Below are positions 68 to 31,449 of a stretch of DNA of 46,967 nt, piece after piece. Both the position numbers and the translations under genes were made by a program. The first letter of the stretch is position 1; every line of letters starts with the position of its first letter. The notes beneath the pieces are model-generated. The model saw nothing but the letters and a program-made list of their open reading frames with translations. It did no database searches and was not told the origin of the DNA. Source of the DNA: an uncultured Desulfovibrio sp. (GTDB lineage: Bacteria; Desulfobacterota; Desulfovibrionia; Desulfovibrionales; Desulfovibrionaceae); assembly GCF_944327235.1 (NCBI RefSeq), contig NZ_CALVHE010000010.1:1-46967 (forward strand), read 5' to 3'.

Positions 68-215
68 TAGAGCATTTTCCGTTTGAAACGCTTCGCGTTC
101 CAAACCATACGGCCTGGCGTTTCACGGAAAAAACGCGGTTTTTCCGCTCACTTTGGGCCGGGCGGCGCTGTGCCGCCGCCTCGCAACGTGCCTTTTCCAA
201 TGGCAAAATACTCTA
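68..215 (+). repeat. Family-1 MITE-like element, copy A (most complete)
   Basis: About 146 bp between flanking TA dinucleotides. The left end reads TAGAGCATTTTCC and the right end, read inward on the other strand, TAGAGTATTTTGCC, so the ends form imperfect terminal inverted repeats. Inside are an A/T hairpin (GGAAAAA pairing with TTTTTCC, 125-146) and a GC hairpin (GGCGGC/GCCGCC, about 162-178). The right end supplies the TAG stop codon of the minus-strand gene ending at 213. Related copies lie at 10521, 27758, 31308, 34014 and 37467/37632. No transposase is present, so it would have to be mobilised in trans. Confidence 0.8.
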
Positions 216-1760
216 ATTTTTTAGATAGGGGACGGCCGGCTGGGCCATGATGGCGTCGAGCTCTCCGAGGAGCGGCCCCAGCGTGAGCATGAACAGCGTG
301 TCGCCCCGCTGGCGCGCCATCTGGAGCGAGCGCAGCAACGGGGGCCTGAGCAAGTCAGGGGTCAGGTCGCCAAAGGCCATCTCCTCGGGGATGGGAAAAC
401 CGAGCAGCCGTTCCAGCGCTGTCACATCGCGCTTGCCGCCGCAAAGATCGTTGCGGATGTTGTACGGGGGAAAGTTGTGGTGCATGGTCAGCAGGTAGAC
501 CGCCAGCGCCGCCGGTTCGTCAGGGTAGGTCTGCCAGAAATCGCGCGCGCATCTGTACTCGATCCTTTCCGGGCTCAGGATCCTCCGCATGAAGTCGCCC
601 CGGCTCCAAACCGTTTTTCCTTCTTCCACCCGCCGGACGGCGACGGATTCCCGCAAGTCCCGCCGGTAAACGACGGACAGCAGCGCCCGCCGGATCAGCG
701 GCATGGTCTGGGCGGGATCGAAAATATACCGACCATAACAGGAGCGGATATGCTGCTCCCAGCGATCGGCTGGCGTATCCAGAGCGACGGAAACAGCTTT
801 GCAGACGTCATCGAACACGCTGACATTGATGCCCGTGGGAGTGATGATCAGCCGTTTTCGCGGGGCTTCGAGTGTACGGCGGATCTCCGGGCGCAGGGCG
901 GACAGCGCAAAGACTTCCCCGATATTGGAATATTCAGTGATGAGCGTGACGGCGCGGGCGAATTCCGGCAGATGGTCGAAATCGCGGCTGACGGCAAAGC
1001 GGGGATGCCCTTCAAAAAGGGAAATGAGCTTCTTGACGTCAGGATGATCCCACGACGTGACGCAGGGGCGGAAGCAGATGCGGTATTGGGGAAAATGCAG
1101 GAGCAGGGCATCGATCATGGACGGGGCAAAATCGCAGATCATGCGGTTGCGCGGATCGTTGGGATTGGCCCAGTAGCCGGTAGGCGCATAGAGGATGGAA
1201 TCCTGCTCGCACGCCATTTCGCGCAGGTGCGCCTGAACGGTGGCGATGCGCGGGCAACCCACGGGAAAGAAGGTGTAGAACGGACGTTTGCGGCGGACAT
1301 GGGCGGGGTTGCAACTGCCTTCCAGTTCCTGACGGATCAGCGCGGCATCCCTGAGCGTCTGCGGCGTGGTGGTGAAGTAGGCATCCTGATGGTACATCCG
1401 CCGCTGCCAGCCCGGAAAGGCCATCGGCGTATCATAGCCGAGGAAGGAGTGGGGGAAGGCCGCCACGAAGGATCTGTCCGGAAAGTCGTTCTCGTACTGA
1501 TCGGTACAGAGGAAGATGCTGACGTCCCGCAGATCCTTCAGCTCCTGCCGCGGCACCTGGAAGATGGGGCCGGGCATGGAAAAACTTCCAGGTTCCAGCG
1601 TGGTCAGGGTGCAGAGGGCGAAATCCTTTTCCACATGTCGATAGATCTCCCGAAAGTATTCATCGGGGATGCGGTTCTCCCAGTGGATGCAGAAACAGAG
1701 GACAGGCCGCTGGGAGGCATGGCTGTCGATCCAGGCCTGGGCTTCCGTCAATTGGCTCAT
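213..1760 (-). CDS. Glycosyltransferase-like / CDP-glycerol transferase-like protein
   Basis: A 515-residue soluble protein without signal peptide or clear membrane segment. Near the middle it has LYAPTGYW, followed by a stretch about filing positions of other sites (IDALLLHFPQYRICFRP) and YSNIGEVFALSA. This order resembles the C-terminal GT-B half of CDP-glycerol glycerophosphotransferase-like and related surface-glycan enzymes; the match is from memory of the fold pattern, not a firm family call. The start was placed at 1760 because an AGGAAGG Shine-Dalgarno precedes that ATG; the longer open frame to 1901 has no ribosome site and a shadow-like, Arg-rich start. It shares strand with a nucleotidyltransferase and an RmlD-type reductase, which fits a surface-polysaccharide role. 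Its TAG stop is formed by the end of repeat copy A. Confidence 0.6.
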   Translation of the reverse strand: MSQLTEAQAWIDSHASQRPVLCFCIHWENRIPDEYFREIYRHVEKDFALCTLTTLEPGSFSMPGPIFQVPRQELKDLRDVSIFLCTDQYENDFPDRSFVAAFPHSFLGYDTPMAFPGWQRRMYHQDAYFTTTPQTLRDAALIRQELEGSCNPAHVRRKRPFYTFFPVGCPRIATVQAHLREMACEQDSILYAPTGYWANPNDPRNRMICDFAPSMIDALLLHFPQYRICFRPCVTSWDHPDVKKLISLFEGHPRFAVSRDFDHLPEFARAVTLITEYSNIGEVFALSALRPEIRRTLEAPRKRLIITPTGINVSVFDDVCKAVSVALDTPADRWEQHIRSCYGRYIFDPAQTMPLIRRALLSVVYRRDLRESVAVRRVEEGKTVWSRGDFMRRILSPERIEYRCARDFWQTYPDEPAALAVYLLTMHHNFPPYNIRNDLCGGKRDVTALERLLGFPIPEEMAFGDLTPDLLRPPLLRSLQMARQRGDTLFMLTLGPLLGELDAIMAQPAVPYLKN

Positions 1761-2254
1761 GCGTGTTTTCCTTCCTGCCGTCCGGCGCACGAAAGCGATA
1801 CGGATAGGCTCGCTGCCCGCCGCGCTCCTTTCGTGCCGCGGGGCCAAAAAAATCGACCATTGACGGCGTGTGTCGATCTTCGCCGTCAGGGCTGTCTGCA
1901 TACCGCGGCTTTTCCGCCAGCCGGGATACGGCGCGTCGGAACGAACGGGCGGATACGAGGCGGCCTCAGTGCCTGTTCATATACCTTTTACGAATGATCA
2001 CAGTCATGGCCCTGGACGATTCGTCGTCCGTCCCTTCTGACAAAGACGTGCTGAGGAAGGGGCAGGGCAGGGGGAGAGATGACGAAAGCGTTATTCCTCG
2101 CTCTGCGATGAAAGGGCTGAGCGCTCACGTCGGGGTGATCGAAATACCGATCGCAGGACCGTGTCCGTCAGCATCCGGTACACTACAGACGGTCCCATGG
2201 AAGGGAAGGATTCCCTTCCCCCCCAAAGAGACCGGGATCTCGTGTCGTCGTGGC
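1761..2254. other. Intergenic stretch with hairpins, no gene seen
   Basis: About 490 bases between two minus-strand genes. Open frames here have poor codon use and no ribosome sites. Two clean stem-loops are visible: GGACGA-TTCG-TCGTCC at 2014-2029, with a UUCG-type loop on the plus strand, and GGAAGGGAA-gga-TTCCCTTCC at 2199-2219. Neither is followed by a T-run, so they are not obvious intrinsic terminators. The second lies just past the end of the nucleotidyltransferase gene and may protect that 3' end. A TATATG box reading leftward near 1983 could serve the glycosyltransferase-like gene, but no good -35 partner was seen. Confidence 0.5.
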
Positions 2255-3055
2255 TTAACCGTTGGGTGAGGTGACGCGCCAGTCATGCGACCAGCCGTCG
2301 CGTTCCAGGGCCCGCTTGTAGATGTAATAGTCCTCGCGGCTGTCCACTTCCACCCAGTGCCCGACCACGGGTACGGCCTGTACCAGCACGTCGTCGTCCA
2401 CCAGTCGCTGGATGAAGGAGGTCATGTCCGTATGGTCACAGGCGCTGCCCAGCTGGTCGAGGTGTTTTTTGGCGTAGCTCCAGCCCTTGGGGGAAAAGCG
2501 GATAAGCCCCATGTACTGGCCCTGGATGTCGTCGGGGTCCTCCGGCCGGAAGCCGACTTCCAGCAGGCGGCCGTCCTGATGGATGAAGGTCTCGGCGTTC
2601 ATGAGCGGATCGCCGAAACGCTGCATCCACAAGGTCTGCCAGCGGGTGTCGTAGGTGATGGCGACAGGCTCCACGGCGTTGGCAAGCGCCAGGATATGGT
2701 TGGCCGGATACAGGGCGTCAGCATGGCTGACGATGATGCCGTCCTCGTCCTCGGCCAGCGCCATGTCGATCCACGGGGCCACGCAACGCAGGCCGGACAG
2801 CAGACTGCCGTGCAGCCAGTCCGTGTTCTCCACGGTCTCGAAGGTGTTGGGGGGCAGCCCGGCAGCTTCGGGCGTGAGCTGCTCGGATCGATAGCCGCGC
2901 ACTACGCAGATGCGGCGTGCTTTGGCGGCTTCCAGCGCCTCGCACTGCCAGCGGACCAGCGTCTTTCCGCCCAGCTCGATGAGACTGGTGGGTTTGTCCT
3001 CGGTGAGTTCCTTGAGACTGGCGCCACGTCCCGCGCCCAGAATAATGGCAATCAT
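2255..3055 (-). CDS. Sugar/alcohol-phosphate nucleotidyltransferase (MobA/LicC-like)
   Basis: A 266-residue protein of the NTP-transferase (GT-A Rossmann) fold. The N-terminus reads MIAIILGAGRGASL, the variant G-x-G-x-R nucleotide-binding loop, followed by DKPTSLIELGGKTLV, the usual K-P-x-x-L substrate loop. VSHADALY around residue 100 is where the metal-binding Asp is expected. Such enzymes activate sugar-1-phosphates or alcohol phosphates such as phosphocholine with CTP or UTP; the substrate cannot be told here. The start has a GGGAG ribosome site and a TATACT -10 box about 50 bases upstream. The gene lies downstream of the RmlD/DUF3179 pair but is separated from it by a terminator, so it is probably its own transcript. 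Confidence 0.8.
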   Translation of the reverse strand: MIAIILGAGRGASLKELTEDKPTSLIELGGKTLVRWQCEALEAAKARRICVVRGYRSEQLTPEAAGLPPNTFETVENTDWLHGSLLSGLRCVAPWIDMALAEDEDGIIVSHADALYPANHILALANAVEPVAITYDTRWQTLWMQRFGDPLMNAETFIHQDGRLLEVGFRPEDPDDIQGQYMGLIRFSPKGWSYAKKHLDQLGSACDHTDMTSFIQRLVDDDVLVQAVPVVGHWVEVDSREDYYIYKRALERDGWSHDWRVTSPNG

Positions 3056-3106
3056 GCGAGCAGCTCCCTTTACAGTCTCCCGGGACGGGAGAACGGATTT
3101 TTCTCA

Positions 3107-3135
3107 AGTATACGGATAAAACAAGCTTCCTGCAA
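3107..3135 (-). promoter_or_regulatory. Sigma-70 type promoter for the nucleotidyltransferase
   Basis: Read on the minus strand: TTGCAG (-35, bases 3130-3135), 17 bases, TATACT (-10, bases 3107-3112). The -35 box lies inside the last arm of the upstream gene's terminator hairpin, so terminator and promoter are packed together. Confidence 0.5.
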
Positions 3136-3175
3136 GTCGCGGGCGGCCATTTGGCTCCCGTGACCCGCAGGAAGC
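3117..3175 (-). terminator. Intrinsic terminator after the DUF3179 gene
   Basis: Arms GCTTCCTGC (3125-3133) and GCAGGAAGC (3167-3175) pair perfectly, with further pairing of CGGG/CCCG inside the loop. On the minus strand the stem is followed by the T-rich TTGTTTTAT. Confidence 0.6.
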
Positions 3176-3207
3176 GGTGCAGACGGCGTATGATCGCCCT
3201 GGGGGAT

Positions 3208-4806
3208 TCAGTTTCGTCCTGTCGTGGCGGCTGTGGGCGCGGCAGGCATGGGGAGGGGGGCCAGCGCCGCTCCCGGCGGCGTCACAGGACCGACGCCGGT
3301 GCTGCTGCCGGCCTGAGCGGGCAAGCCTCCGGCGGGCGTGGGAGCCGTCGGCGCGTAGCCTGCCGGAGCGCCTCCCGCGGGCTGCTGGGCATAGCCTCCG
3401 GGGGCAACGCCGTAGCCGGGCATGGTCCCGCCCGCGGCGGGCGCCTGCTGGAGCGTACCGGGCTGCATCGCCGGTCGGCCTGTCGTGGGGGGCTGATCGG
3501 CGCCTTGCGGCATGGCCTGCCCGGGATAGGGCACGTTCGGCAGTCTGCCCTGCGGCAGACTTTGGGGCATGGCGCCGGCGGGGACGGCCTGCGATGCCGC
3601 TGTCCCAGCCGGTACGGCAGCCTGTCCGCCGCCCGGCTGGCCGGGGAGCGGCGCGGTGGCCTGCGCGGCTTCCGGGCTTGGCCCCAGCGGAGTGATCTGG
3701 AGCAGCTCTTCGGGGACTTCTCCGGGGCCGGGGATGAAGAGCGTTTCCGGGTTCATGCTGGCCCAGGCGAACCACATGGAGTAGCTGCCGTAATACTGGG
3801 GCATGTTCGCGCCCTTGAGGTTGCCCGCCAGACAGATGCCGGTGGCGGGGTCCCAGATGCTGCGGGTGGAGATGTCGATGAGCTGATTGCCGGAATAGAC
3901 GAAGAGGAACGGTTCCGCCCAGACCTGACGGTTGAAGACGCGGACCACGTCCAGCTTCTTGTCGTGCACGGCGACCAGGGCCGACGGCCCCACGAAGAAG
4001 TTCACCGCGCCCTTTTCCTTGACGTAGTTGATATCCAGCGCGATCAGCGAGCCCTGATGCTCAAGGCAGAACATGGGCGTCTTGCGGGGGAAGCGACGAT
4101 CCACACGTTCGACGGGATAGACCAGCTCGTCATTGGTATAGTAGGTGTCGTCCTTGCGGTAGTCGCCGTAGGGGTCGCGGCCGTAGGGGCGGCGTCCCGG
4201 CGGGCGGGAGAGCACCTTGGCGCCGGGGAAGGTGCGCCTGGCCGGTCCCCAGGTCGTCCAGTAACAGGGCACGAGGGGCATACCGCGTCCGAGCAGGCTG
4301 CCGTCAAAGGCCATGCCCAGCTCCTGGAGCCAGAGACTGCCGGAATTGCGGTCGATGAGTACGGAATTGCCGTCGTACAGGCGACCTTCGGCGTCGAAGA
4401 TGAGGTTGAGCCCGCCCATGGAGGCGTCATAGGCGGCAAAGCCGCCGGTGATGGGGCTGTACGTGATGGCGTAGGCGTGGTCGTCCACCACCTCATTGAT
4501 GACCTGATGCCAGACAAGGTATTTTTGCGGATAGATGCGCGGCCCGTCGGGCAACATGACCACAAAGACCACATCATCGGCGTTCATGCTGAGGCCGGCA
4601 TCCTGCATCCGGTCGAAGCGGGGCCGGTAGAGCGAAGGGATCTGCCCGTACTCGATGCCGCTTTCCGTCAGTTTTTTGTTGATGTTGGCCAGTTCCTGCA
4701 GGTTCTGCGGACGGGCCTGGGCTGTTCCGCCCGTCAGCAGGCAGCCGAACAGCAGCAACGGCAGGATGCGGCGGCTCAGGCGGCCGCTCCTCATCAGGTT
4801 CAGCAT
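3208..4806 (-). CDS. Exported DUF3179-domain protein with a Pro/Ala/Gln-rich tail
   Basis: 532 residues. It begins with a basic, then hydrophobic stretch (RRILPLLLFGCLLTGGTAQA) typical of a Sec signal peptide. Residues from about 50 to 370 match the DUF3179 pattern as I know it: IYPQKYLVWHQVINEVV, AITYSPITGGFAAYD, LIDRNSGSLWLQELG, YWTTWGPARRTFPGAKVLS and YGRDPYGDY. The last ~150 residues are low-complexity Pro, Ala, Gly and Gln. The family has no established function. The ATG overlaps the upstream reductase stop by seven bases (ATGCTGA), so the two are translationally coupled. That pairing hints at an envelope or glycan connection but does not prove one. The tail could be a wall-spanning linker. 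Confidence 0.8.
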   Translation of the reverse strand: MLNLMRSGRLSRRILPLLLFGCLLTGGTAQARPQNLQELANINKKLTESGIEYGQIPSLYRPRFDRMQDAGLSMNADDVVFVVMLPDGPRIYPQKYLVWHQVINEVVDDHAYAITYSPITGGFAAYDASMGGLNLIFDAEGRLYDGNSVLIDRNSGSLWLQELGMAFDGSLLGRGMPLVPCYWTTWGPARRTFPGAKVLSRPPGRRPYGRDPYGDYRKDDTYYTNDELVYPVERVDRRFPRKTPMFCLEHQGSLIALDINYVKEKGAVNFFVGPSALVAVHDKKLDVVRVFNRQVWAEPFLFVYSGNQLIDISTRSIWDPATGICLAGNLKGANMPQYYGSYSMWFAWASMNPETLFIPGPGEVPEELLQITPLGPSPEAAQATAPLPGQPGGGQAAVPAGTAASQAVPAGAMPQSLPQGRLPNVPYPGQAMPQGADQPPTTGRPAMQPGTLQQAPAAGGTMPGYGVAPGGYAQQPAGGAPAGYAPTAPTPAGGLPAQAGSSTGVGPVTPPGAALAPLPMPAAPTAATTGRN

Positions 4807-5666
4807 TGGGAGCCCCCTTCACGGAAAAGATAGTCTCGCAGGGCTTGCGGCCACGGACGCGGGGTTTCCCCAAGAAACTGCGCCAGCTTGTCGCAGTTGA
4901 GCACGGAATAGGCGGGACGGCGGGCCTTTTGCGGCCAGGCGGAACTGGGGATGGGTTCCACCCGGCAGGGGCTGCCGGTCAGGGACACGGCTTCGCAGGC
5001 CAGTTCGCACCAGCTGGCGCGGCCGCTGTTGGCGGCGTGCCAGAGCCCGGTCTGTCCGGCTTCGGCCAGGCGGGCGCTCCAGAGAGCGAGATCCAGCGTG
5101 TAGGTGGGCGAACCGTGCTGGTCGTGCACCACGCTGATGACGTCGCGCCGTCGGCAGGCGTCGAGGATGGTCTGTACGAAGTTGCGCCGCCCCGGGCCGA
5201 ACAGCCAGGCCGTCCGCAACACGAGGGAGCGATCCGGCAGCTCGTTGCGCACGGCCTGCTCTCCGGCCAGCTTGGTCTTGCCGTAGACGGAGACCGGGCA
5301 GGGCGTATCCTCTTCAGTAAGGGCCCTGCTGCTGTTGCCGCCGAACACGAAGTCCGTGCCGTAATGCACCAGCAGGCCGGAACCGATGTTGCGCAACAGC
5401 CGGGCCAGAGCATCGGGCAGCGTACGATTGATGAGCAGAGCCTCCTCGGGATGATCTTCCGCATCGTCCACCTGCGTCCAGGCGACGGTATTGAAGACCA
5501 CGTCCGCTTCGGCCTGCTCCAGACGCTGCTGCAGGAAATTCATGTCCTGCAGATTACCGTCGCAGCGACCCAGCGTTTCCACCTGCCATCCTCGATGGGA
5601 CAATACCCGCACAAGGGTCTGCCCCAGCAACCCGGTGGCCCCTCCTAGAACCAGCGCTTTGGCCAT
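4800..5666 (-). CDS. rfbD: RmlD-type dTDP-4-dehydrorhamnose reductase (NAD(P)-dependent)
   Basis: 288 residues, a normal length for RmlD. It has the Rossmann loop GGATGLLG at residues 8-15, VVFNTVAWTQVDDAE and the catalytic YGKTKLAGE (Tyr-x3-Lys), followed by a WLFGPG-type segment. The family reduces dTDP-4-keto-L-rhamnose to dTDP-L-rhamnose, the last step of that pathway; some members act on other 4-keto sugars, and RmlA/B/C are not adjacent. The start has a GAGGAGG ribosome site. It leads a two-gene unit with the DUF3179 gene and diverges from cbiK across a 98-base gap. Confidence 0.85.
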   Translation of the reverse strand: MAKALVLGGATGLLGQTLVRVLSHRGWQVETLGRCDGNLQDMNFLQQRLEQAEADVVFNTVAWTQVDDAEDHPEEALLINRTLPDALARLLRNIGSGLLVHYGTDFVFGGNSSRALTEEDTPCPVSVYGKTKLAGEQAVRNELPDRSLVLRTAWLFGPGRRNFVQTILDACRRRDVISVVHDQHGSPTYTLDLALWSARLAEAGQTGLWHAANSGRASWCELACEAVSLTGSPCRVEPIPSSAWPQKARRPAYSVLNCDKLAQFLGETPRPWPQALRDYLFREGGSQC

Positions 5667-5758: not shown

Positions 5759-5764
5759 GGAAAA

Positions 5765-7479: not shown

Positions 7480-7514
7480 GGGAGTCGCCATGCGCCGCAT
7501 GGCGACTCCCTTTT
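7480..7514 (+). terminator. Intrinsic terminator after the cbiK-lipoprotein unit
   Basis: A perfect stem of at least 13 bp (GGGAGTCGCCATG 7480-7492 with CATGGCGACTCCC 7498-7510), followed by TTTT. It sits between convergent genes. Confidence 0.85.
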
Positions 7515-7533
7515 CCAATGACAAAACGCTCTA
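7509..7533 (-). repeat. Remnant of a family-1 repeat end at the repressor stop codon
   Basis: On the minus strand the bases read TAGAGCGTTTTG then TCATTGGAAAAGG. This matches the right-hand end of copy A (TAGAGTATTTTG, CCATTGGAAAAGG) almost base for base. The leading TAG is the stop codon of the repressor gene. The rest of the element is absent; the terminator stem follows directly. Confidence 0.6.
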
Positions 7534-8220
7534 CCGGTATTCCCGTCCGGACCAGAGCACGCGACCGATGACGCGGAACTGCTCCGCGCAGTCTCCCCGC
7601 AGATCGAGCGTCACGGGCGCATAGGCCGGATTGACGCTGCGGAGGATGATCTTGCCGGGCAACATATCGATGCGCTTGATGTAGATGGCGTCCTCGAAAC
7701 CGACGGCGTACAGGCGGCCGGGCGTGATCTCCGTCTGGCCCTGATCCAGCAGGACGAGGTCGTTATCGAAGATCTCCGGGACCATGCTGTCGCCGGAGAC
7801 GCGCATGAGCACCATGCGGCGGGGATTGCCCTTGCGGCGGAGGAAGTCGCCGCGAAAGGCATGTCCGCCTTCCGTGCCGCCATCGACCTCAAGGCTGCCG
7901 GTCCCGGCGGAGAGACGCGCCTCCACCAGCGGGATGGTGATCATGTCCACCTCCGGTCTTGTCGCCACCTCGCCGTCGTCGCCGCTCAGATGCGGGGGGA
8001 GGAACATGGGACCCTGCCCGAAGAACAGCCAGTGCGCATTGCATCCCGTCTTTTCCGCGCAGAGCTGCACCCAGGCCGGGGGGACTTCACCCCGGCGGCG
8101 TGCGCCGCTCACCGACTGGGGGCTGATGCCCAGCGCGCGGGCCAGTTCGGCATCCGAGCCGGCGGACAATGCCTTCATGAGCCGGGCAAGCATAGTGTCG
8201 CAGGTGGAGTTGTCGCTCAT
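7531..8220 (-). CDS. CI/LexA-like repressor with S24 self-cleavage domain
   Basis: 229 residues. Residues 10-65 form a lambda-CI-type helix-turn-helix (DAELARALGISPQSVSGARRRG). Residues ~95-229 are an S24 peptidase-like domain with the nucleophile Ser145 in GDSM and general-base Lys182 in YIKRI; LSAG at 103-106 is a plausible Ala-Gly self-cleavage site. Such proteins repress DNA and are inactivated by RecA-stimulated autoproteolysis. The start at 8220 was chosen over two upstream ATGs because it has a well-spaced GGAG site. It has a TTGACA promoter and an operator-like palindrome over its -10 box, so autoregulation is likely. No other phage gene is nearby, so it is a domesticated or stand-alone regulator; its other targets are unknown. 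Confidence 0.85.
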   Translation of the reverse strand: MSDNSTCDTMLARLMKALSAGSDAELARALGISPQSVSGARRRGEVPPAWVQLCAEKTGCNAHWLFFGQGPMFLPPHLSGDDGEVATRPEVDMITIPLVEARLSAGTGSLEVDGGTEGGHAFRGDFLRRKGNPRRMVLMRVSGDSMVPEIFDNDLVLLDQGQTEITPGRLYAVGFEDAIYIKRIDMLPGKIILRSVNPAYAPVTLDLRGDCAEQFRVIGRVLWSGREYR

Positions 8221-8267
8221 TTTTGTCTCCATGAATAAACAAAAAGTTTTCAATCGAAATTTTTTAT

Positions 8268-8287
8268 TTATTTTGTCCGCAAAATAA
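8268..8287. promoter_or_regulatory. Palindromic operator candidate for the CI-like repressor
   Basis: TTATTTTG-TCCG-CAAAATAA: two perfect 8-base arms around a 4-base centre. It covers the -10 box of the repressor's own promoter, as expected for an autorepression site. Confidence 0.55.
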
Positions 8288-8298
8288 TCAGCTGTCAA
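8270..8298 (-). promoter_or_regulatory. Promoter of the CI-like repressor
   Basis: On the minus strand: TTGACA (8293-8298), 17 bases, CAAAAT (8270-8275). The -35 box is a perfect consensus. The region is much more AT-rich than its surroundings. Confidence 0.7.
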
Positions 8299-10520: not shown

Positions 10521-10674
10521 AGAGGGCGCTTAGCCATTGAAAAAGGCATGACGCGAGGCGGCGGCACAGCGCCGCGCGGCCCAGGCCCAATCCAGGCGGC
10601 AAAACGCTGCCTTTCCGCGAAACGCCAGAGGCCGTATGGTTGGGATCGCGAAGCGTTTCAAGCTGGAGATGCGC
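10521..10674 (-). repeat. Family-1 MITE-like element, copy B
   Basis: Aligns end to end with the reverse complement of copy A: GCCATTGAAAAAGG, GCGAGGCGGCGGCACAGCG, GAAACGCCAGAGGCCGTATG and CGCGAAGCGTTTCAA. The GC hairpin is kept and the A/T hairpin is degenerate. The stretch 10296-10520 before it holds no gene that I can support. Confidence 0.75.
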
Positions 10675-10686
10675 TGGAAAGAATTT

Positions 10687-11153: not shown

Positions 11154-11537
11154 ATGCGTCGTTTCCTTCCCGCTCTTGCTCTCGTCCTTGGTCTTTCCTC
11201 TCCCGCCCTTGCCGCGTACGATGGGCCGACCAGCGGTTATGGCGGCTTCCAGGGGCCGACCTCTTCGGTAGGGGTCACCACGGTGGCCAAGGCGCTCAAG
11301 GCCTGGGACGATGCCCCGGTGGTGCTCACCGGCAATATCGTGCAGCGCATGGCCGGCAGCGACGACAAGTACGTTTTTCGGGACAGCACCGGTCAGATCG
11401 TCGTGGACATCGACCATGAGCTGTTCTGGGGCAAGACCGTGACGCCCGCCAACACCGTGCGCATTTCCGGCGATGTGGACAAGGATATGTTCGATCCCAC
11501 CAAGATCGACGTCAAGTTCCTGGAAATTTTGAAGTAA
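11154..11537 (+). CDS. BOF/YgiW-family periplasmic OB-fold protein (first of four)
   Basis: 127 residues. A Sec signal peptide ends near PALAA, then the family signature YGGFQGP, then a single OB-fold with VVLTGNIVQRMAGSDDKYVFRDSTG, VVDIDHELFWG and TVRISGDVDKD. This matches the YgiW/YdeI (NirD/BOF) stress-tolerance family, whose E. coli members sit next to qseBC and help survival under peroxide, cationic peptide or metal stress; ligand binding is not settled. The start at 11154 follows GGAGG. It leads an array of four paralogues. The leader can fold over the ribosome site. A 52-base run (11401-11452) is identical to the next gene. Confidence 0.85.
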   Translation: MRRFLPALALVLGLSSPALAAYDGPTSGYGGFQGPTSSVGVTTVAKALKAWDDAPVVLTGNIVQRMAGSDDKYVFRDSTGQIVVDIDHELFWGKTVTPANTVRISGDVDKDMFDPTKIDVKFLEILK

Positions 11538-11567
11538 TATGCCAAAAAAATGAAAGAGGTGGCCTGT

Positions 11568-11984
11568 ATGAAGATCTTCTCCCTTCTCCTGCTGGCGATG
11601 TCGCTGAGCGTTCCCGCCCTTGCCGCGCCGGACGGCGTCCCCGGTCCGGCGGATGCGGGGGGCTATCAGGGCCCGGCAGCCTCCTACGGCGGCTTCCAGG
11701 GGCCCACCGGCGGGACGGACAACGATACCGTGGCCAAGGCGCTCAAGGCCTGGGACGAATCGCCCGTGCTGCTCACCGGCAATATCGTGGAACGGCTGGC
11801 CGGCAGTGACGACAAATACATGTTCCGCGACGCGACCGGTCAGATCATCGTGGACATCGACCATGAGCTGTTCTGGGGCAAGACCGTGACGCCCGCCAAT
11901 ACCGTGCGCATCGCCGGAGAGGTGGACAAGGAGATGTTCGAGGCCACCAAGATCGACGTCAAGTTTTTGGAAGTCATAAAGTAA
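11568..11984 (+). CDS. BOF/YgiW-family periplasmic OB-fold protein (second)
   Basis: 138 residues. Signal peptide ending PALAAP, then two GP signatures (GGYQGP and YGGFQGP) and an OB-fold closely matching the first copy: LLTGNIVERLAGSDDKYMF, IIVDIDHELFWGKTVTP, VRIAGEVDKEM. The start at 11568 follows AAAGAGGT; an ATG six codons upstream lacks a ribosome site. It starts 30 bases after the previous stop and shares a 52-base identical stretch (11848-11899) with it, which points to recent duplication or gene conversion. Confidence 0.85.
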   Translation: MKIFSLLLLAMSLSVPALAAPDGVPGPADAGGYQGPAASYGGFQGPTGGTDNDTVAKALKAWDESPVLLTGNIVERLAGSDDKYMFRDATGQIIVDIDHELFWGKTVTPANTVRIAGEVDKEMFEATKIDVKFLEVIK

Positions 11985-12020
11985 CCGTCTCAGGAACGGG
12001 AATCAAAAAGGAGTTTTGTC

Positions 12021-12413
12021 ATGAAGATTCTGCTTTCTTCCCTGCTGGTGCTGGCTCTGGCCGCTCCCGTGTTTGCCCAGCCGGGCTTCCAGGGGCCGGG
12101 GGCCGGTCAGGGCGGCGGTTTCCAGGGGCCGACGGCGGGCATCCAGGCCGATACCGTGGCCAAGGCGCTCAAATGCTGGGATGACGCGCCGGTCATCCTG
12201 ACCGGGAACATCGTGCAGCGCTATGCGGGCAGCGACGACAAATATCTTTTCAAGGACGCCACCGGCGAGATCATCGTGGATATCGACTTCGGCGTCTTTG
12301 CCGGACGCACGGTCACCCCGGACACCAAGGTGCGCCTGTCCGGCAAGATGGACAAGGACGGCATGATGGAACCGGCCAAGGTGGACGTGAAGGTGCTGGA
12401 AATCCTCAAGTGA
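12021..12413 (+). CDS. BOF/YgiW-family periplasmic OB-fold protein (third)
   Basis: 130 residues. Signal peptide ending PVFAQ, two signatures (GFQGP and GGFQGP), then VILTGNIVQRYAGSDDKYLF, IIVDIDFGVFAG, VRLSGKMDKDGM. It is more diverged from the first two copies and carries a single Cys in the mature chain (KCWDD), which the others lack. The start follows AAGGAG. It lies 36 bases after the second copy and is likely cotranscribed. Past it, a GC stem (CGGCAGG/CCTGCCG, about 12423-12441) lies in a 159-base gap before the fourth copy. Confidence 0.85.
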   Translation: MKILLSSLLVLALAAPVFAQPGFQGPGAGQGGGFQGPTAGIQADTVAKALKCWDDAPVILTGNIVQRYAGSDDKYLFKDATGEIIVDIDFGVFAGRTVTPDTKVRLSGKMDKDGMMEPAKVDVKVLEILK

Positions 12414-24995: not shown

Positions 24996-25997
24996 ATGAC
25001 GCGAGACGCCATGAGTAGACCAAAGATCCTGACGACGCTCCTTTCCCGTCGCGGACTATTTTTCCTTCTGCAGACATCCGTCAGTCTGGCAGCCCTGATC
25101 TATGCTCTGGCGGGGGTGGACCTGCCGCTGCTCTGGGCCGCGCTGCGCGGCTATGCGCTCTGGGCCGTGGGGCTTTCCCTGTGTGCGGTGGCGCTGGACT
25201 ATGCCTGCATGGGGCTGCGCCTGCACAACCTGCTGCCGGGGAGCGTCCCGTACGGCCTGAGTCTCAAGGCCGTGCTGCTGTGCGTGGGCTATAACAACAT
25301 CCTGCCCGCCAAGGCCGGGGACGCCATGAAGGTCTTTTTCCTTGCCCGAAAGACCGGCAGGCCCCTGCTCGACATCAGCTCCATCGTGCTCTGGGAGCGG
25401 CTGCTCGATGTCCTGTCCCTGCTTTGCGTGGCCTTGCTGGCCTATACGCTGCTGGGCACAGGACAGCGTCTGCTCCTGCCGCTGCTGCTCGTGCTGGGCG
25501 GCGGCTGTCTCTTTTTCTGCCTTCGCTGCTGGTCGGCATGGTTCCATGCCGCGTATGCCCGTTTCTTTCCGGGCCGCATGGCCACGCTCTGCGCCCGTCT
25601 GCATGATCAGCTCATAGACGGCATCTCGCTTCCCCGCCTGGTGGGCGGTTTCCTGCTTTCCCTGTGCATCTGGAGCTGTTATTTCGCCAGCTTCGTCATA
25701 TCGCTCCGTCTGGTGGCGGGGCTGCCCCTCGACGGTGCACAGATGCTCACGGTCTTTGCCGTGACGTGTCTGGGCATGGCCATCCCTTCCTCGCCGGGCG
25801 GCCTGGGGGTCTTTGAAGGGGCCATGGTGCTCAGTCTTTCCTGGTTCGGCGTGGAGCAAAGCGCCGCGCTGGGGATCGCGTTGTATACACATGCTCTGCA
25901 CTTCCTCCCCGCCGCGCTGGCGGCGCTCCTGCTCAACAGCAGCCGGGGCTTCTGGACGGAAACGGCCCGGCCGGCGAGAGCGGCGGAGGATATATGA
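24996..25997 (+). CDS. UPF0104 / lysylphosphatidylglycerol-synthase-TM-like membrane protein
   Basis: 333 residues, with about eight predicted membrane helices. It has the family's GYNNILPAKAGDAMKVFFLARKTG segment and SSIVLWERLLD, plus MAIPSSPGGLGVFEGAMVLSLS near the C-terminus. Family members include the flippase-like AglD/MprF-TM proteins, proposed to move lipid-linked substrates across the membrane. The start at 24996 has a GAGG site; 25011 is an alternative. It lies 112 bases after the GT2 fusion and overlaps the next gene by four bases. A flipping role is inference from context. Confidence 0.75.
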   Translation: MTRDAMSRPKILTTLLSRRGLFFLLQTSVSLAALIYALAGVDLPLLWAALRGYALWAVGLSLCAVALDYACMGLRLHNLLPGSVPYGLSLKAVLLCVGYNNILPAKAGDAMKVFFLARKTGRPLLDISSIVLWERLLDVLSLLCVALLAYTLLGTGQRLLLPLLLVLGGGCLFFCLRCWSAWFHAAYARFFPGRMATLCARLHDQLIDGISLPRLVGGFLLSLCIWSCYFASFVISLRLVAGLPLDGAQMLTVFAVTCLGMAIPSSPGGLGVFEGAMVLSLSWFGVEQSAALGIALYTHALHFLPAALAALLLNSSRGFWTETARPARAAEDI

Positions 25998-27682
25998 ACA
26001 AGACGACACGATGTGATCTCGCGGTGGCGCTGGGGATCCTGCTCTTTGCCGTGCTGCTGCATTACGGCAGGATGGGCGCTTCCATCGACGGCGTATGGCT
26101 CTCCACCGATTCGGCCATGTACGCTTCCATCGCCGCTGCCTACGGCCATCCCGAAAAATTCGCGCATGACTTCGTCTACGGCGTGGAAAGCCAGTACCTC
26201 ACCCATGTGACGCCGCTGGTGCAGCTCGTGGACTGGCTGGCGTCGGATGACGGCAATTACGGCATCGCCTATCTGCAGGTGACCGGCCTGAGCGTATTCC
26301 TGCATTACATCGCCTTCTATCTCCTGGGCATCCTCTTTTTCCGGGAACGCTGGAAGGCGCTCATCTTCACCATACTCATGGGCCTGTGTTACTGGACGCC
26401 CTGGGGGACCTACTGGGGCGCGGGCTACGTCGATTATACGCCGCGCAGCCTGTTCAATGCCCTGTATGCTCTGCTCCTTTGCGTCTATTTCCCCATCCTG
26501 GACAAGCCGCGCTGGTGGCCGCTCTTCATGGCCGCGCTGGGCGGGCTCGTCTATGTGCATTCCATCAGCGCGTTACCGGTGGCGGCGGGCCTGTGGCTGG
26601 GCTTTGCCGCCAGTCGTCCGCAGGGCTGTCCCCTCTGGCGCCATCTGGCGCGTCTGCTGGCCACGGGCGGCTGCTTCCTTGCCGTCATGACGCCCTATGC
26701 CCTGACCTACACGCACGCCTCGGGCGTCAGGCTCGGCCCGGAAGATGTGGCGTTCATGGATCATATCCTGAGGACGCGTTTTGACATCGAATATGCCGAA
26801 TATCTTTACGGCATGGGCAAGTTCCTGCGTCAGTACACCCTGTTGCCGGTCATCCCTCTGGCGCTGGGGGCCACATGGCTGATCTTTCGCCACGGCACGC
26901 CGCGCGAGAAGCTTTTCGGCAAGCATATCTGGCTCTGGGTAGCGGGCGTCTATGTGGTGATCCTCCTGTTCGTGCTGGATCAGGAGCTCTCCCGGGCGCT
27001 GGGCCGTATGCATCTGGAGTTCGACCTCGTGCGGGTCCACCGCTTCCTGCCGTTTTTTGCCATGTGCCTCATCTTTCTGGGGGCCAACATCCTGTGGCGA
27101 CGGGTGGCCATGCAGGCGGGACGTCCTTTCTGGCAGCGGACGGCCGCGTGTCTGTGCTGCCTCGGGCTGGTGATCGGCTTTTTCTGCGGCGGCCAGCAGG
27201 ATCTGGCGCGCAGCGCCCTTGCCTGGTACTGGAACCGGCTCGATGCGGAGCGCTATGAGGCGGCGTACGGCCCATTGCTGCGGCGGGCGGAGATGGTAAA
27301 GGCCGTCAGCGAGCATACCCGGCCCGGCGAGAGCCTTTTCTTCCCGGGTGAGGATCAGGCCATCCGCTATAATGCGTTGCGCCCCCTGACATACGGCTGG
27401 AAGGATGCCTGCCTGTTGTATTATGCCAAGGGCATCGCTCCGCTGCATCAGTGGGAACGCATCGAGGCCGCGCTCAAAACCTCACCGACGGCCTATATCG
27501 ACGTGGCCCTGTCCACGGATCCGGACTATCTCCTGAGCGAACGCCCGCAGGACCGTGCGCGCCTGGAAGCGGAAGTAGGCCCCGTCATCTGGGAGAATGC
27601 TCGCTACTTGCTGGTACGCAATGACCATAAGCTGGCGGGGAACGGCGTCACGGCCACGGAGAAGACCATACGACCGCGTTGA
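25994..27682 (+). CDS. Polytopic membrane protein, GT-C glycosyltransferase-like
   Basis: 562 residues with roughly ten hydrophobic helices. After the first helix comes a loop with WLSTDSAMYASIAAAYGHP and HDFVYG, the place where GT-C enzymes carry their catalytic acidic residue. The last ~140 residues are a soluble, probably periplasmic, domain (SEHTRPGESLFFPGEDQAIRY). I do not recognise a named family. Coupled by ATGA to the preceding membrane protein. The most economical reading is that it transfers a sugar from the polyprenyl carrier made by the upstream GT2; the acceptor is unknown. A terminator follows. Confidence 0.6.
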   Translation: MNKTTRCDLAVALGILLFAVLLHYGRMGASIDGVWLSTDSAMYASIAAAYGHPEKFAHDFVYGVESQYLTHVTPLVQLVDWLASDDGNYGIAYLQVTGLSVFLHYIAFYLLGILFFRERWKALIFTILMGLCYWTPWGTYWGAGYVDYTPRSLFNALYALLLCVYFPILDKPRWWPLFMAALGGLVYVHSISALPVAAGLWLGFAASRPQGCPLWRHLARLLATGGCFLAVMTPYALTYTHASGVRLGPEDVAFMDHILRTRFDIEYAEYLYGMGKFLRQYTLLPVIPLALGATWLIFRHGTPREKLFGKHIWLWVAGVYVVILLFVLDQELSRALGRMHLEFDLVRVHRFLPFFAMCLIFLGANILWRRVAMQAGRPFWQRTAACLCCLGLVIGFFCGGQQDLARSALAWYWNRLDAERYEAAYGPLLRRAEMVKAVSEHTRPGESLFFPGEDQAIRYNALRPLTYGWKDACLLYYAKGIAPLHQWERIEAALKTSPTAYIDVALSTDPDYLLSERPQDRARLEAEVGPVIWENARYLLVRNDHKLAGNGVTATEKTIRPR

Positions 27683-27722
27683 CGGGCCACCGCGTCGCCT
27701 GCTCTCCGCACAAATATAGTTG

Positions 27723-27757
27723 AACGCCCGTCCCTCAGCGGTACGGGCGTTCTTTTT
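27723..27757 (+). terminator. Intrinsic terminator of the GT2-flippase-GT-C unit
   Basis: AACGCCCGT (27723-27731) pairs with ACGGGCGTT (27743-27751), followed by CTTTTT. Family-1 copy C begins at the very next bases. Confidence 0.75.
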
Positions 27758-27867
27758 GAGCATTTTCAGTTTGAAACGCTTTGCGGTCCAAACTATCCGG
27801 CCTGGTGTTTCGCGGAAAAAATGCGGTCATTCCGCTCATTTTGGGGCGGCTCTGTGCCGCCCTCTGC
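27758..27867 (+). repeat. Family-1 MITE-like element, copy C (3' degenerate)
   Basis: GAGCATTTTCAGTTTGAAACG through GGCCTGGTGTTTCGCGGAA matches copy A. Both hairpins are kept, with the A/T stem now GCGGAA/TTCCGC and the GC stem GGCGGC/GCCGCC. Sequence after the GC hairpin no longer aligns. Confidence 0.7.
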
Positions 27868-27918
27868 TTTATCCGCGTCAGTGCTCAGTCTGCGGCTGAG
27901 GAAGGGCCGCAGGCGGCT

Positions 27919-28461
27919 TCATTTCCAGGTATAAGGGATGTGCGGCGAGTCCAGCGGCGCGGTCTCGCTTTCGGCAGGGTCGTGCGGCATGTCCGCTCCG
28001 TTGCAGAGCAGGGCGGGCGCATCCCCCACGGCGGCAAAGGCGTACCAGACGCCCGGAGGTATGCGCAGCAGGGCATAGGCATCGGGGCGCCCCAGCTCCA
28101 GACGGCAAAGCACGCCCTGCGTGGGCGACTGGGCCCGGTCGTCATAGAGCGTCAGGGCCATGCGTCCACTGGGTACGGCAAAGTGCTGGGTCTGGCGGCT
28201 GTGGCGTTTCCATCCCTTGATGTGGCCGGGGAGCACTTCGGAGAAGTAGACTTCTCCCAGATGCAGACGCTCGTCGGCTGCCGGAGCATCCGGGCAGGGA
28301 CAGCCGGGGCGCAGGGGCGCAGCCGCCTTGAGCATGTGCAGCACAGCGCCGCCCGGCGTATCGATGATGCGCAGCGGCAGCAGCCAGGCGCCGTCGATGC
28401 CGATGCCGCGCGGGGTATCGTCGGCCGGTGCGGAGGTGGAAAGCGTGATGACCGGAGGCAT
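27919..28461 (-). CDS. RmlC-like cupin sugar-nucleotide epimerase
   Basis: 180 residues. It has the RmlC core: IIDTPGGAVLHMLKA, GEVYFSEVLPGHIKGWKRH (substrate Lys and the catalytic His region), ALTLYDDR and LRIPPGVWYAFAAVG, ending in a short IPYTWK. RmlC-type enzymes epimerise C3/C5 of 4-keto-6-deoxy sugar nucleotides. It is next to CDP-glucose genes, so the substrate may be CDP-4-keto-6-deoxyglucose, but a dTDP substrate cannot be excluded. The ATG at 28461 is seven bases after the rfbG stop, with an AGGT site. It ends a three-gene minus-strand operon. Confidence 0.7.
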   Translation of the reverse strand: MPPVITLSTSAPADDTPRGIGIDGAWLLPLRIIDTPGGAVLHMLKAAAPLRPGCPCPDAPAADERLHLGEVYFSEVLPGHIKGWKRHSRQTQHFAVPSGRMALTLYDDRAQSPTQGVLCRLELGRPDAYALLRIPPGVWYAFAAVGDAPALLCNGADMPHDPAESETAPLDSPHIPYTWK

Positions 28462-28468
28462 GGCCGAC

Positions 28469-29587
28469 CTACCTTGCCCAGAGTTGCTGCCGCTGCTCGG
28501 CGGCATTGCAATAGGCCGCGATCTGTCCGAGGCTGAAGTCGAGCAGGGAGGCCCCGGCCTGCTTGCCGCCCTCGCCGCGATAGAAGCGATGGTACCATTC
28601 AGCGGTGAAGCGGATGGTCTCCTCAAAATCAAGGGTGGCTTTCCAGCCCAGATGAGCGAGGGCCTTGTCGCAGCAGAGCTTGAGCAGGGTGCATTCCTTG
28701 ACGCCCGCCTGCGCCTGCGGATCGGTCTCGCTCACGAAGCCGGGCCAGTGGGTCGCGAGGGCCGCCACCACTTCGGCCACGGTATTGTTGACATCCGCGG
28801 CGGGGCCGAAGTTGTAGGCCTGACCGCGTACGGCAAAGGGGCCTTCGCGCAGGCCCAGCAGATGGGCCCCCAGCCACAGATAACCGGAAAGCGGTTCCAG
28901 CACGAGCTGCCACGGGCGCGTGGCCCAGGGGCTGCGGATGCGCACCGCCCGTCCGTCCGCCCAGGCGCGGGCGCAGTCCGGCACGATGCGGTCCAGCGCC
29001 CAGTCCCCGCCGCCGATGACGTTGCCCGCCCGTGTGGTGGCGCAGGCCGGGCCTTCGCTGCCGAAAAAGCTCTGGAAGTAGGAATGGGCGATGATCTCCG
29101 CGCAGCCCTTGGAGGCGGAATAGGGATCGTAGCCGCCGAGGTGGTCGGTCTCGCGATAGCCCCAGACCCATTCGTCATTGCGGTAGCATTTGTCCGAGGT
29201 GATGAAGACCGCGGCGGCCACGGACGGACATTGCCGCAGACCTTCCAGCACGTTGAGCGTGCCCATCATGTTGGCTTCAAAGGTCAGCGCCGGTTTGTCG
29301 TAGGAGAGGCGCACCAGCGGCTGAGCCGCCAGATGGAAGACCACCTCCGGCCGGAATTCTTGCAGGGCGCGGCTGACGGCGTCCCTATCGCGGATGTCGC
29401 CGCGATAGTCCCGCATGTGTTCGGCAAGGCGGGCGGCTTCAAAGTGGGAGGGGGTGGTGGGCACGCCATCGGCAAAGCCCGCCACTTCCGCGCCGAGACT
29501 GATCAGCCAGGCGGCAAGCCAGGAACCCTTGAAGCCGGTGTGGCCGGTTATGAAGACCCGGCGCCCCTTGTAGCAATTGGCAAACAT
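28469..29587 (-). CDS. rfbG: CDP-glucose 4,6-dehydratase
   Basis: 372 residues, usual for RfbG/DdhB. It is a short-chain dehydrogenase/reductase with the NAD loop ITGHTGFKGSWLA at residues ~13-25, the catalytic YDPYSASKG (Tyr-x3-Lys), VFITSDKCY and RAGNVIGGGDWALDRIVPD. It converts CDP-D-glucose to CDP-4-keto-6-deoxy-D-glucose, the branch point to dideoxy- and 6-deoxyhexoses of O-antigens. The start at 29587 follows AGGA; the longer frame runs through rfbF in another phase. It lies 103 bases downstream of rfbF. Confidence 0.93.
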   Translation of the reverse strand: MFANCYKGRRVFITGHTGFKGSWLAAWLISLGAEVAGFADGVPTTPSHFEAARLAEHMRDYRGDIRDRDAVSRALQEFRPEVVFHLAAQPLVRLSYDKPALTFEANMMGTLNVLEGLRQCPSVAAAVFITSDKCYRNDEWVWGYRETDHLGGYDPYSASKGCAEIIAHSYFQSFFGSEGPACATTRAGNVIGGGDWALDRIVPDCARAWADGRAVRIRSPWATRPWQLVLEPLSGYLWLGAHLLGLREGPFAVRGQAYNFGPAADVNNTVAEVVAALATHWPGFVSETDPQAQAGVKECTLLKLCCDKALAHLGWKATLDFEETIRFTAEWYHRFYRGEGGKQAGASLLDFSLGQIAAYCNAAEQRQQLWAR

Positions 29588-29690
29588 GTCGATCCTTTGC
29601 GTCGTACGCGACGGCCTGCCGCACGCGGTGGCACACGGCAGGCCGGTAGATGTCCGGGGAAGGGACAGGACGGCAGGGCCGCCTGCGGCG

Positions 29691-30455
29691 TCAGATCCAG
29701 AACGCCTTGCCCGAATCCCAGAGTTCATTGAGCTTGAGGGAATCCCGCAAGGTATCCATGCACTGCCACTGTCCGGGGTGCGGATACATGGAGAGCTGCC
29801 CTTCGGCCGCCAGCCGTTGCAGAGGCTCCTTTTCCAGGTCGCAGGATTCGTCCTCGCTGAGGTAGTCGAGGAACTCCCGCTTGAAGACGAAGAAGCCGCA
29901 GTTGATGTATTCGTCGAGGACGGGCTTTTCTTCCCAGGAGAGGATCTTGCCGTTCTCGTCCGTACGGACCGTGCCGAAACGGGAAGGCATACGCACGCCG
30001 GTGAAGGTGCCGATGGTGCCGGACTGCTTGTGGAATTCCACGAGCTTGTCAAGGTCGATATCCGCCACGCCGTCCCCGTAGGTCACCATGAAACGGTCGC
30101 CGTCGATATGCCGGGCCACGCGTTTGAGGCGTCCGCCCTTGAGGGTCTCCTGCCCGGTGTCGCAGAGGGTCACGCGCCAGTCCACGATCTCCGTGGGATG
30201 GGCCGTGATGTCGCCGTTCTTGAGGTCCACGGTAAAATCCGTGTTGCGGATATTGTAATCATGGAAATACTGCTTGATGACTTCGCCCTTGTAGCCGAGC
30301 GGCAGGATGAAGTCCTTGTAGCCGAAGCGGGCATAAATGGACATGATGTGCCAGAGCACCGGGCGTCCGCCGATCTCCACCATGGGTTTGGGTTTGATGG
30401 CCGTTTCTTCGCGCAGGCGCGTTCCCTTGCCGCCGCACATGATGATGACTTTCAT
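29691..30455 (-). CDS. rfbF: Glucose-1-phosphate cytidylyltransferase
   Basis: 254 residues, the standard length. The N-terminus MKVIIMCGGKGTRL and ETAIKPKPMVEIGGRPVLW gives the nucleotide and Lys loops, with YGDGVADID as the metal Asp. It makes CDP-glucose from CTP and glucose-1-phosphate. The start at 30455 has a GGAGG site. It heads the CDP-sugar operon rfbF-rfbG-epimerase; no rfbH (ddhC) dehydrase is present in the window, so a 6-deoxy rather than 3,6-dideoxy sugar is possible. Confidence 0.95.
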   Translation of the reverse strand: MKVIIMCGGKGTRLREETAIKPKPMVEIGGRPVLWHIMSIYARFGYKDFILPLGYKGEVIKQYFHDYNIRNTDFTVDLKNGDITAHPTEIVDWRVTLCDTGQETLKGGRLKRVARHIDGDRFMVTYGDGVADIDLDKLVEFHKQSGTIGTFTGVRMPSRFGTVRTDENGKILSWEEKPVLDEYINCGFFVFKREFLDYLSEDESCDLEKEPLQRLAAEGQLSMYPHPGQWQCMDTLRDSLKLNELWDSGKAFWI

Positions 30456-30599
30456 TGTGCCTCCGTTGAGTGCCGTCCCATGTCCGCGACAGGCGGACTG
30501 TCGGCATGTCCCCCTTGTAGCAGAGAGCGGCGGGGAAAAAAAGCCCCGCCCGTCCCCGCCCGCCGCCGGGACCGTCGGGGACGGGCGCCCTGCCGGGCC

Positions 30600-30627
30600 T
30601 TGCAATCCCTGCGGCCTGTGCTAGCCT
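30600..30627 (+). promoter_or_regulatory. Promoter for the 30.7-kb lipoprotein gene
   Basis: TTGCAA (30600-30605), 16 bases, TAGCCT (30622-30627). The leader then contains a stem (CTCCCCTC 30641-30648 with GAGGGGAG 30654-30661) just before the AAGGAG ribosome site. Confidence 0.5.
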
Positions 30628-30680
30628 GCACACAAGCCGTCTCCCCTCATGACGAGGGGAGCATACCCAAGGAGTGCCTT

Positions 30681-31310
30681 ATGTCCTTCTTTCATCGTCG
30701 CGCCAGGGTCCTGGTCCCGGCGCTGAGCGCCCTGGTGCTGGCTGCCTGCATGACCTCCGGTCCGGAAAAGACGCTCGGCGCGCTGGCGGATGCCCTGAGC
30801 GCCAACGACAGCGCCGCCTTCATGGCCAATGTGGATCTGAAAAGCTTTTCCGCCAATGAGATCAGCAACATGACGCAGGAAAGCCGGGGACTCAACATGC
30901 TGGACTCTCTGGGACGCCGTCTCGGCATCGGCGGAGTGGACAAGATGCTCAACAGCATCGTGGATGTGGAGAACGATCTGCGCCAGCATTTCAACCGGGG
31001 CGTCAGCACGGGCGAACTTATGGCCGACTGTCGGCAGGCCGAGACGCCGGACTGTCCGTGGGTGCCGGAATCGCTCAAGAAGGCGAAGATGGTGAAGATC
31101 GACGAGACGGCCGCCGTGGCTTCCGTCACCACGCCCACGGGCATGACCTCCTGGCTGGCGCTGCGCAAGCAGGGCGAGAACTGGCAGGTGGTGGGGCAGG
31201 CCGTTCTGGAGGATACGGCCCGCAAGTATGCGCTGGGCAAGGCCGCCGCTCCTTCCGGCAAGACGCAGAAGCCGGCCGCGCAGGATAAGCCCGCGCCTGT
31301 GGATATTTAG
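30681..31310 (+). CDS. Small lipoprotein of unknown function
   Basis: 209 residues. A basic start and hydrophobic run end in the lipobox LAAC at residue ~23. The mature part begins TLGALADALSANDSAAFMANVDLKSFSAN, reminiscent of DUF2939-like proteins with an alternating helical lead and a small alpha/beta domain (MTSWLALRKQGENWQVVGQAVLEDTA). The last 25 residues are a Lys/Pro/Ala-rich tail. Start at 30681 with AAGGAG. It is divergent from rfbF and stands alone. The TAG stop is provided by the end of repeat copy D. No function is proposed. Confidence 0.65.
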   Translation: MSFFHRRARVLVPALSALVLAACMTSGPEKTLGALADALSANDSAAFMANVDLKSFSANEISNMTQESRGLNMLDSLGRRLGIGGVDKMLNSIVDVENDLRQHFNRGVSTGELMADCRQAETPDCPWVPESLKKAKMVKIDETAAVASVTTPTGMTSWLALRKQGENWQVVGQAVLEDTARKYALGKAAAPSGKTQKPAAQDKPAPVDI

Positions 31311-31449
31311 AGCCTTTTGCCGTTGAAAAGCAAAAGGCGAGGCGGCGTCACAGCGCCGCCCGGCCCAGATCGAGCGGGAAAACCACGCTTCCCGCGTAAC
31401 GTCAGACCGCAAGGTTTGAGGCGTGAAGCGCTCCCAACTGAGAAAGCTC
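31308..31449 (-). repeat. Family-1 MITE-like element, copy D, starting at a stop codon
   Basis: Begins TAGAGCCTTTTGCCGTTG, whose TAG is the stop of the lipoprotein gene, then GGCGAGGCGGCG and a GC hairpin, then GCGGGAA/TTCCCGC in place of the A/T hairpin (compensating changes), then CGCAAGGTTTGAGGCGTGAAG. The gene's terminator comes only after the element. Confidence 0.75.

Follow-up and report, generated by a model that had tools for sequence, protein, structure and literature searches.

TA-bounded repeats at the stop codons of Desulfovibrio genes

Why do three genes on a single contig end with TAG exactly where a repeat begins, and do such genes keep their natural ends? We examined this question in a window of 46,967 nucleotides, the entire contig 10 of an uncultured Desulfovibrio sp. 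(own genome, G000, a draft of 2.74 Mb in 155 contigs). The first-pass annotation of the window had reported that all three genes stop with TAG and that a repeat end follows directly, and direct reading of the sequence bore this out: the stops are the minus-strand CTA at 213–215 and 7531–7533 and the plus-strand TAG at 31308–31310, followed by AGTATTTTG, AGCGTTTTG and AGCCTTTTG, respectively. Each TAG consists of the TA of the repeat border and the G that opens the repeat. With a probability of roughly 0.85, we favour the reading that TA-bounded repeats resembling miniature inverted-repeat transposable elements (MITEs) insert at Y-TA-R sites (pyrimidine, TA, purine), and that at TAA or TAG stops the first G of the repeat would rebuild TAG, the old third base then lying beyond the far border.

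The stop at 213..215 (minus strand) belongs to a gene called at 213..1760 (minus strand; no Pfam match for the open reading frame (ORF) 213–1901) and is completed by the first G of a complete element of the family that we term family 1. This element, at 68..215 on the minus strand, measures 148 bp including both TAs, was recognised by a covariance model (162 bits) and by genome-wide DNA matches, and turns its TTTTG end (G-end) towards the gene. The plus-strand gene ending at 31310 starts at about 30681 according to our own caller (30681..31310; the mechanical ORF 29577–31310, which was not adopted, had no Pfam match) and looks lipoprotein-like by eye; its TAG coincides with the G-end of a second family-1 element (31308..31451, plus strand, 115 bits), whose far end (C-end) has decayed from TA to TG. 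A family-1 end had been proposed at all three stops, and full copies are present at 213 and 31310; at 7531 only about 24 nt match. There, a likely remnant of the G-end (TAGAGCGTTTTG...; 7510..7533, minus strand, motif match by eye) is followed by a hairpin, and the covariance model reported no copy at 7533. The gene that stops at the remnant (7531..8298, minus strand) encodes an S24 peptidase/CI-type repressor (PF00717 and PF07022), with an uncertain start codon that our caller places at 8220. At the outer border of the element at 68–215, 15 bases recur beside family-1 ends at C2, C119 and C132, all close to contig ends, and positions 1–67 probably belong to the terminus of a mobile element whose many copies broke the assembly here.

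Family-1 repeats are 148 bp long, with TA at both sides and inverted ends (TAGAGC...GCTCTA); the G-end reads GAGCATTTTG and the C-end GAGCATTTTC, and the ends close a multi-branched fold. Columns 1–5 of the terminal inverted repeats pair in 23/23 copies and the sixth in 22/23, among copies picked for the presence of both ends. The duplicated TA target is found on both sides in copies selected for it and is often decayed elsewhere, frequently to TG/CA at ends that do not lie at stops. Family 1 is thus a MITE-like family: short (<300 bp), present in many copies, with inverted ends and a TA duplication. Rfam models at their gathering score gave 0 matches in the window.

The covariance model matched at least 150 copies in G000, and 43 DNA matches were obtained with 40 of 362 candidates scored. 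The strict end motif TAGAGYNTTTTS occurred 143 times genome-wide, against 5 occurrences of the reversed control. A 447-kb sample (the window together with the opening 20 kb from each of 20 contigs) retained 54 copies out of 56 matches, after two opposite-strand duplicates were dropped; 46 were assigned to family 1 and 8 to family 2, by eye from the end sequence. Extrapolation from this sample gives about 330 copies in the whole genome, a figure to be read with the reservation that contig starts may be repeat-rich. We also detected matches (E 0.001) in 12 of 40 relatives, all within the genus, with at least 76 copies each in G020 and G022, 67 in G002 and 36 weaker ones in G017. The nearest named records, according to the S24 gene, were mostly metagenome-assembled genomes of Desulfovibrio.

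The strict motif demands TAG and served as a first look only: 29 of its 143 occurrences had a border overlapping exactly with a called stop (22/72 TTTTG ends and 7/71 TTTTC ends). The count was then repeated on copies picked by the covariance model, which spans all 148 bp and for which TAG is no requirement. Exact overlap was found for 37 of the 150 best-scoring listed copies of G000, a set that favours well-kept ones (29 G-ends and 8 C-ends), and for 35 of 114 copies pooled from the two congeners (20 G-ends and 1 C-end among 67 copies in G022; 9 and 5, respectively, among 47 in G020). The congener set was kept from 178 matches once scores below 80 bits, copies truncated by a contig end and duplicates on the opposite strand had been removed; its contigs were chosen among those known to hold elements, so that copy density there is not representative. 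Together, 72 of 264 copies (27%) lay at stops. Similar fractions were observed in the 447-kb sample, with 13/54 copies at stops (G-ends 12/54, C-ends 1/54), and 11/46 without the window (G-ends 10/46, C-ends 1/46). The coincidence is sharp: at distances of -10 to +3 nt of the border there were just five cases besides the 72 exact overlaps (two at -4, and one each at -1, 0 and +2). With a stricter gene score (threshold 60 instead of 12), 42 G-end and 11 C-end overlaps persisted. For family 2, whose ends the first-pass annotation had proposed to count along with those of family 1, none of the 8 copies in the 447-kb sample was located at a stop.

In the G000 sample, 1784 TA sites are non-coding, of which 204 lie in stops and 1580 are intergenic (1328 outside repeats); in the relatives, 298 of 2903 lie in stops (2605 intergenic). 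Uniform insertion into non-coding TA would therefore place 10–11% of the copies at stops (13% with repeats excluded). The observed 37/150 and 35/114 exceed this expectation, and the association is not one of chance frequency. Per TA, dividing the counts, stops are occupied about 3–4 times as often as intergenic sites. It had also been suggested that near-neutrality explains the preference for gene ends; the genes are indeed untruncated where testable, but intergenic TA sites are equally non-coding and yet 3–4 times less hit, and near-neutrality is therefore insufficient.

A target preference accounts for much of this difference. Among non-stop copies, a pyrimidine precedes the TA on the C side in 56/69 cases in G000 and 29/33 in the relatives, against a background of 38–39%; the G side shows a weaker preference. 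When TA sites are weighted by the flanks of non-stop copies (Y-TA-R), 17–20% of the copies are predicted at stops; both the flank counts and the predictions use intact-TA ends only. Every TAA or TAG stop supplies the R half of Y-TA-R. Ends inside called genes were found for 4/114 copies in the relatives (with 7,555 coding TA in 544 kb) and for 3/150 best-scoring listed copies in G000. Target motif and loss from coding sequence account for most, not all, of the preference, and a roughly 1.5-fold excess is left after flank weighting. By our estimates, which are scaled to the flank context seen where a copy has kept its TA on both sides, Y-TA-R stops were occupied in 27/130 cases in the relatives versus about 36/308 for Y-TA-R intergenic sites, and the two rates were about equal in G000.

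We then consider whether the genes keep their natural ends. Insertion into TAA or TAG, which the first-pass annotation had proposed to leave TAG, predicts that the base just past the far TA is the third one of the former stop. Where the far TA is intact, this base is A or G in 33/33 cases (22 G and 11 A), and where it has decayed, in 34/39. A full 12-nt flank was available for 32 of the 33; leaving aside 12 multi-copy flanks and one at another repeat, A or G was found in 19/19 single-copy flanks. An occupied and an empty allele were also recovered, this and the orthologue comparisons being made across other species of the genus. At locus L286 of G022 the gene ends with GAATAG, the C-end of the element comes first, and CA (the decayed far TA) and G follow it; at L313 of G020 the gene ends with GAATAG and the homologous downstream sequence follows directly, without the element. 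The two proteins are 100% identical, the final 43 bases of gene DNA up to the stop are the same, and homology resumes past the element.

The orthologues of two of the window genes agree with this, and no frame that normally continues further was seen where this could be judged. All S24 repressor orthologues (15/15) end with RVLWSGREYR*, with TAG in 7, TAA in 3 and TGA in 5; by eye, like or other repeats also adjoin the stop in L140, L141, L142 and L154, and no repeat was found in the bases inspected after the stop of the five TGA orthologues. For the gene ending at 31310 there were 20 orthologues among the 40 relatives, with a comparable C-terminal tail in 20/20 (TAG in 11, TAA in 5 and TGA in 4); their lengths differ from the window protein by -4 to +25 amino acids via a variable linker, so that a strict same-codon claim is not possible. 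Across species pairs with at least 50% identity, tails matched within 5 amino acids in 11/12. From these sequence comparisons, the genes are most likely not truncated where testable. One orthologue of the gene ending at 31310 (L252, in G002) carries a 37-nt perfect inverted repeat exactly at its stop, TAGAGCGTTTTGCTCAT...ATGAGCAAAACGCTCTA, with 17-nt arms, a 3-nt loop and ends of the same kind as family 1; it may represent a minimal member of this system.

The opposite reading, that the element landed in longer frames and its TAG is premature, is very improbable. TA within a TAC or TAT codon would give TAG too, a MITE making a premature stop has been published (MITEAba12; PMC6382973), and the gene at 213 has distant homologues in only 2/40 relatives, too few to judge its natural end. 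The A or G beyond every intact far TA (also with single-copy flanks), the occupied and empty alleles and the identical or comparable gene ends of the orthologues all argue against truncation, which we consider unlikely for the genes with orthologues (S24, the gene ending at 31310 and the cross-species pairs). We find it scarcely more credible that the association is inflated by ascertainment, in that recognition based on TAG would favour stops, where TAG is preserved. This is true of the strict motif set, and TA has frequently decayed at non-stop ends; copies picked by the model on their full 148-bp length are found at stops in a similar fraction, though the best-150 set favours well-kept copies.

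A further reading deserves more weight, although we regard it as rather unlikely: insertion may be directed to gene ends, or selected there in one orientation, with the G-end hairpin after the stop protecting or terminating the mRNA. It draws on the orientation of the copies at stops, where the G-end faces the gene in 58 cases and the C-end in 14 (29:8 in G000, 20:1 in G022 and 9:5 in G020). Between codirectional genes the ratio is 39:6 at stops versus 48:43 for non-stop copies (Fisher P 1e-4). In one copy, the G-end forms a hairpin of 13 bp (48-nt fold, -19 kcal/mol, z -4.8), compared with -10.5 for the C-end. The ratio is 14:7 for stop copies that retain both ends intact, compared with 44:7 for the remainder (Fisher P 0.10). 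Against this reading, non-stop copies between codirectional genes have no orientation bias, G020 alone is not significantly skewed (9:5, P 0.42), and the lowest-scoring third of G000 gives 5:5. The hairpin was no better preserved in stop-located copies in four comparisons, and a scan of a single copy placed its internal terminator-like sites in the direction that enters at the C-end, with none in the G-end direction. General selection for terminator direction is not supported, given the 48:43 ratio and the direction of these sites. Insertion at Y-TA-R leaves the bias at stops unexplained all the same. So does near-neutrality, since GAG opens either end and TAG results in both orientations alike; the flank preference predicts a G-end share of 57–62% at stops.

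Several observations weigh against Y-TA-R insertion as a full account. The 72/264 copies at stops lie above what flank weighting predicts (P about 5e-4 or less, with copies treated as independent, although G020 and G022 have some sites in common), and the 58:14 orientation departs from the flank prediction as well (P about 6e-4 or less, unevenly between species). A test that takes the occupied gap as given yields about 8.9 expected stop copies in G000, compared with 13 seen, which is no clear enrichment. Non-stop copies also have a purine beyond the TA, on the C side in 55/67 and on the G side in 27/59, and the third-base result by itself is moderate evidence because this baseline is already rich in R. 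Moreover, 13/32 tested far flanks were multi-copy or at another repeat, including the multi-copy flank of the window copy at 68–215. Only 8/12 cross-species pairs had an element-free partner, with an element at both stops in the other 4, and two comparisons were counted from both sides. Genes were called with our own codon-usage caller and not with a standard one. Finally, no transposase with family-1 ends was found in a search limited to DDE_3, DDE_Tnp_1 and three end pairs.

Of the features expected for IS630/Tc1-mariner elements, the duplicated TA target is present, and a DDE_3 transposase (PF13358) had 0 matches in G000, a 155-contig draft; drafts can lose multi-copy insertion sequences. 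The search of five genomes for DDE_Tnp_1 gave 15 loci, none between family-1 ends. One of these, L317, was considered as a parent and rejected: it has a TAGAGC pair 943 bp apart, with ends otherwise unlike family 1. A scan of 10 ORFs enclosed by three inward-facing end pairs at a distance of 1.2–1.3 kb in G000 gave hexapeptide, phosphoribosyltransferase, weak immunity-protein or no domains, and none of a transposase.

Taking these points into account, we still favour insertion at Y-TA-R. We infer mobility from the copy number, the TA borders and the occupied and empty alleles, and a transposase would mobilise family-1 repeats into Y-TA-R sites. In a GC-rich genome with few non-coding TA sites, stops represent 10–13% of them. 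An element entering the TA of TAA or TAG would complete TAG with its own G at an unchanged position, and the A or G beyond the far TA is most likely the third base of the former stop. A TAA stop would become TAG in this way; among the 33 far sides that can be read, 11 have an A. Such an insertion would be near-neutral, since TA plus G is a stop in either orientation, and insertions inside genes would be lost by selection.

Other copies in the window do not lie at stops. The covariance model recognised four decayed family-1 copies, at 10522..10676 (plus strand), 27756..27888 (minus), 34019..34154 (plus) and 37618..37750 (minus), and two family-2 copies, at 33865..34015 (minus strand, ends TAGAGCAATCC / TAGAGCGGAGTC) and 37482..37633 (plus strand). 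The latter two are inverted partners, 94% complementary over 144 nt with about 3.5 kb between them. A strict-motif match at 36648 (TAGAGTCTTTTC) was not recognised by the model and is probably due to chance. A third TA-bounded family, with ends like GGGCCTGTTAACACTA, was found at stop codons in L274 from 10250 (G022) and in L140; the stop in L274 carries a family-1 copy in the G020 orthologue (L298), and 19 third-family ends were present in the merged G000 stretches. Two features of the window concern other matters: three tandem related segments of 258 nt (62–87% identity) at 11280–12410, and long G and C runs at the contig end (46889–46967) that are probably an assembly artefact.

As a tentative extension, which we hold at somewhat less than even odds, stops may be a shared safe landing site for several TA-targeting families in Desulfovibrio, which would take the TAR of the stop as target and restore TAG with a G of their own, with the hairpin end preferentially facing the gene, and a sizeable share of TAG stops may have been written by mobile DNA, with TAA converting to TAG. 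In the G000 447-kb sample, stop usage was TGA 146, TAG 138 and TAA 76, with TAG near TGA and above TAA. A stop codon is part of the coding sequence and can yet be split without protein change. This would provide a countable rule for the sites where small TA-targeting elements survive in a gene-dense, GC-rich genome. Mobile DNA would thereby shift stop usage from TAA to TAG, which is relevant to annotation and to studies of TAG readthrough and release-factor bias. The skewed orientation of stop copies (58:14 when pooled) is an anomaly that lends itself to testing.

A literature search at the level of titles and abstract openings returned no description of stop-codon splitting by a TA-target MITE and, by title, no paper on MITEs of Desulfovibrio; several known repeats share parts of the pattern, as far as the excerpts at hand of the cited papers go. 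In Streptococcus pneumoniae, RUP is a 107-bp intergenic repeat of about 108 copies with TA termini and TA targets (PMC2229807). Family 1 is likewise short, TA-bounded, TA-targeting, numerous and intergenic; unlike family 1, RUP has ends that resemble IS630-Spn1, and an IS630-type (DDE_3) transposase was not found in G000. The Correia/NEMIS and ERIC repeats, of about 100–200 bp, also have TA termini, terminal inverted repeats and a highly base-paired structure, a likeness by description and not by sequence, and a stop-codon association is not stated in the excerpt (PMC2229807). SPRITE repeats are enriched near gene 3' ends, as family 1 is, but are small and terminator-like, with no stop overlap described in the excerpt (PMC3049150). 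MITEAba12 is a short non-autonomous element able to supply the stop of a gene; it differs in having a 9-bp target duplication and in its premature stop, which leaves a protein 398 residues shorter (PMC6382973). The closest precedent is the BOX repeat of S. pneumoniae, which is intergenic and encodes the stop of 36 coding sequences with no strong evidence of truncation (PMC3049150). BOX differs from family 1 in being modular, and the splitting of TAR stops (TAA or TAG) by insertion into a TA target does not form part of its account in the excerpt (PMC3049150); in both cases, an intergenic repeat encodes the stops of its neighbour genes.

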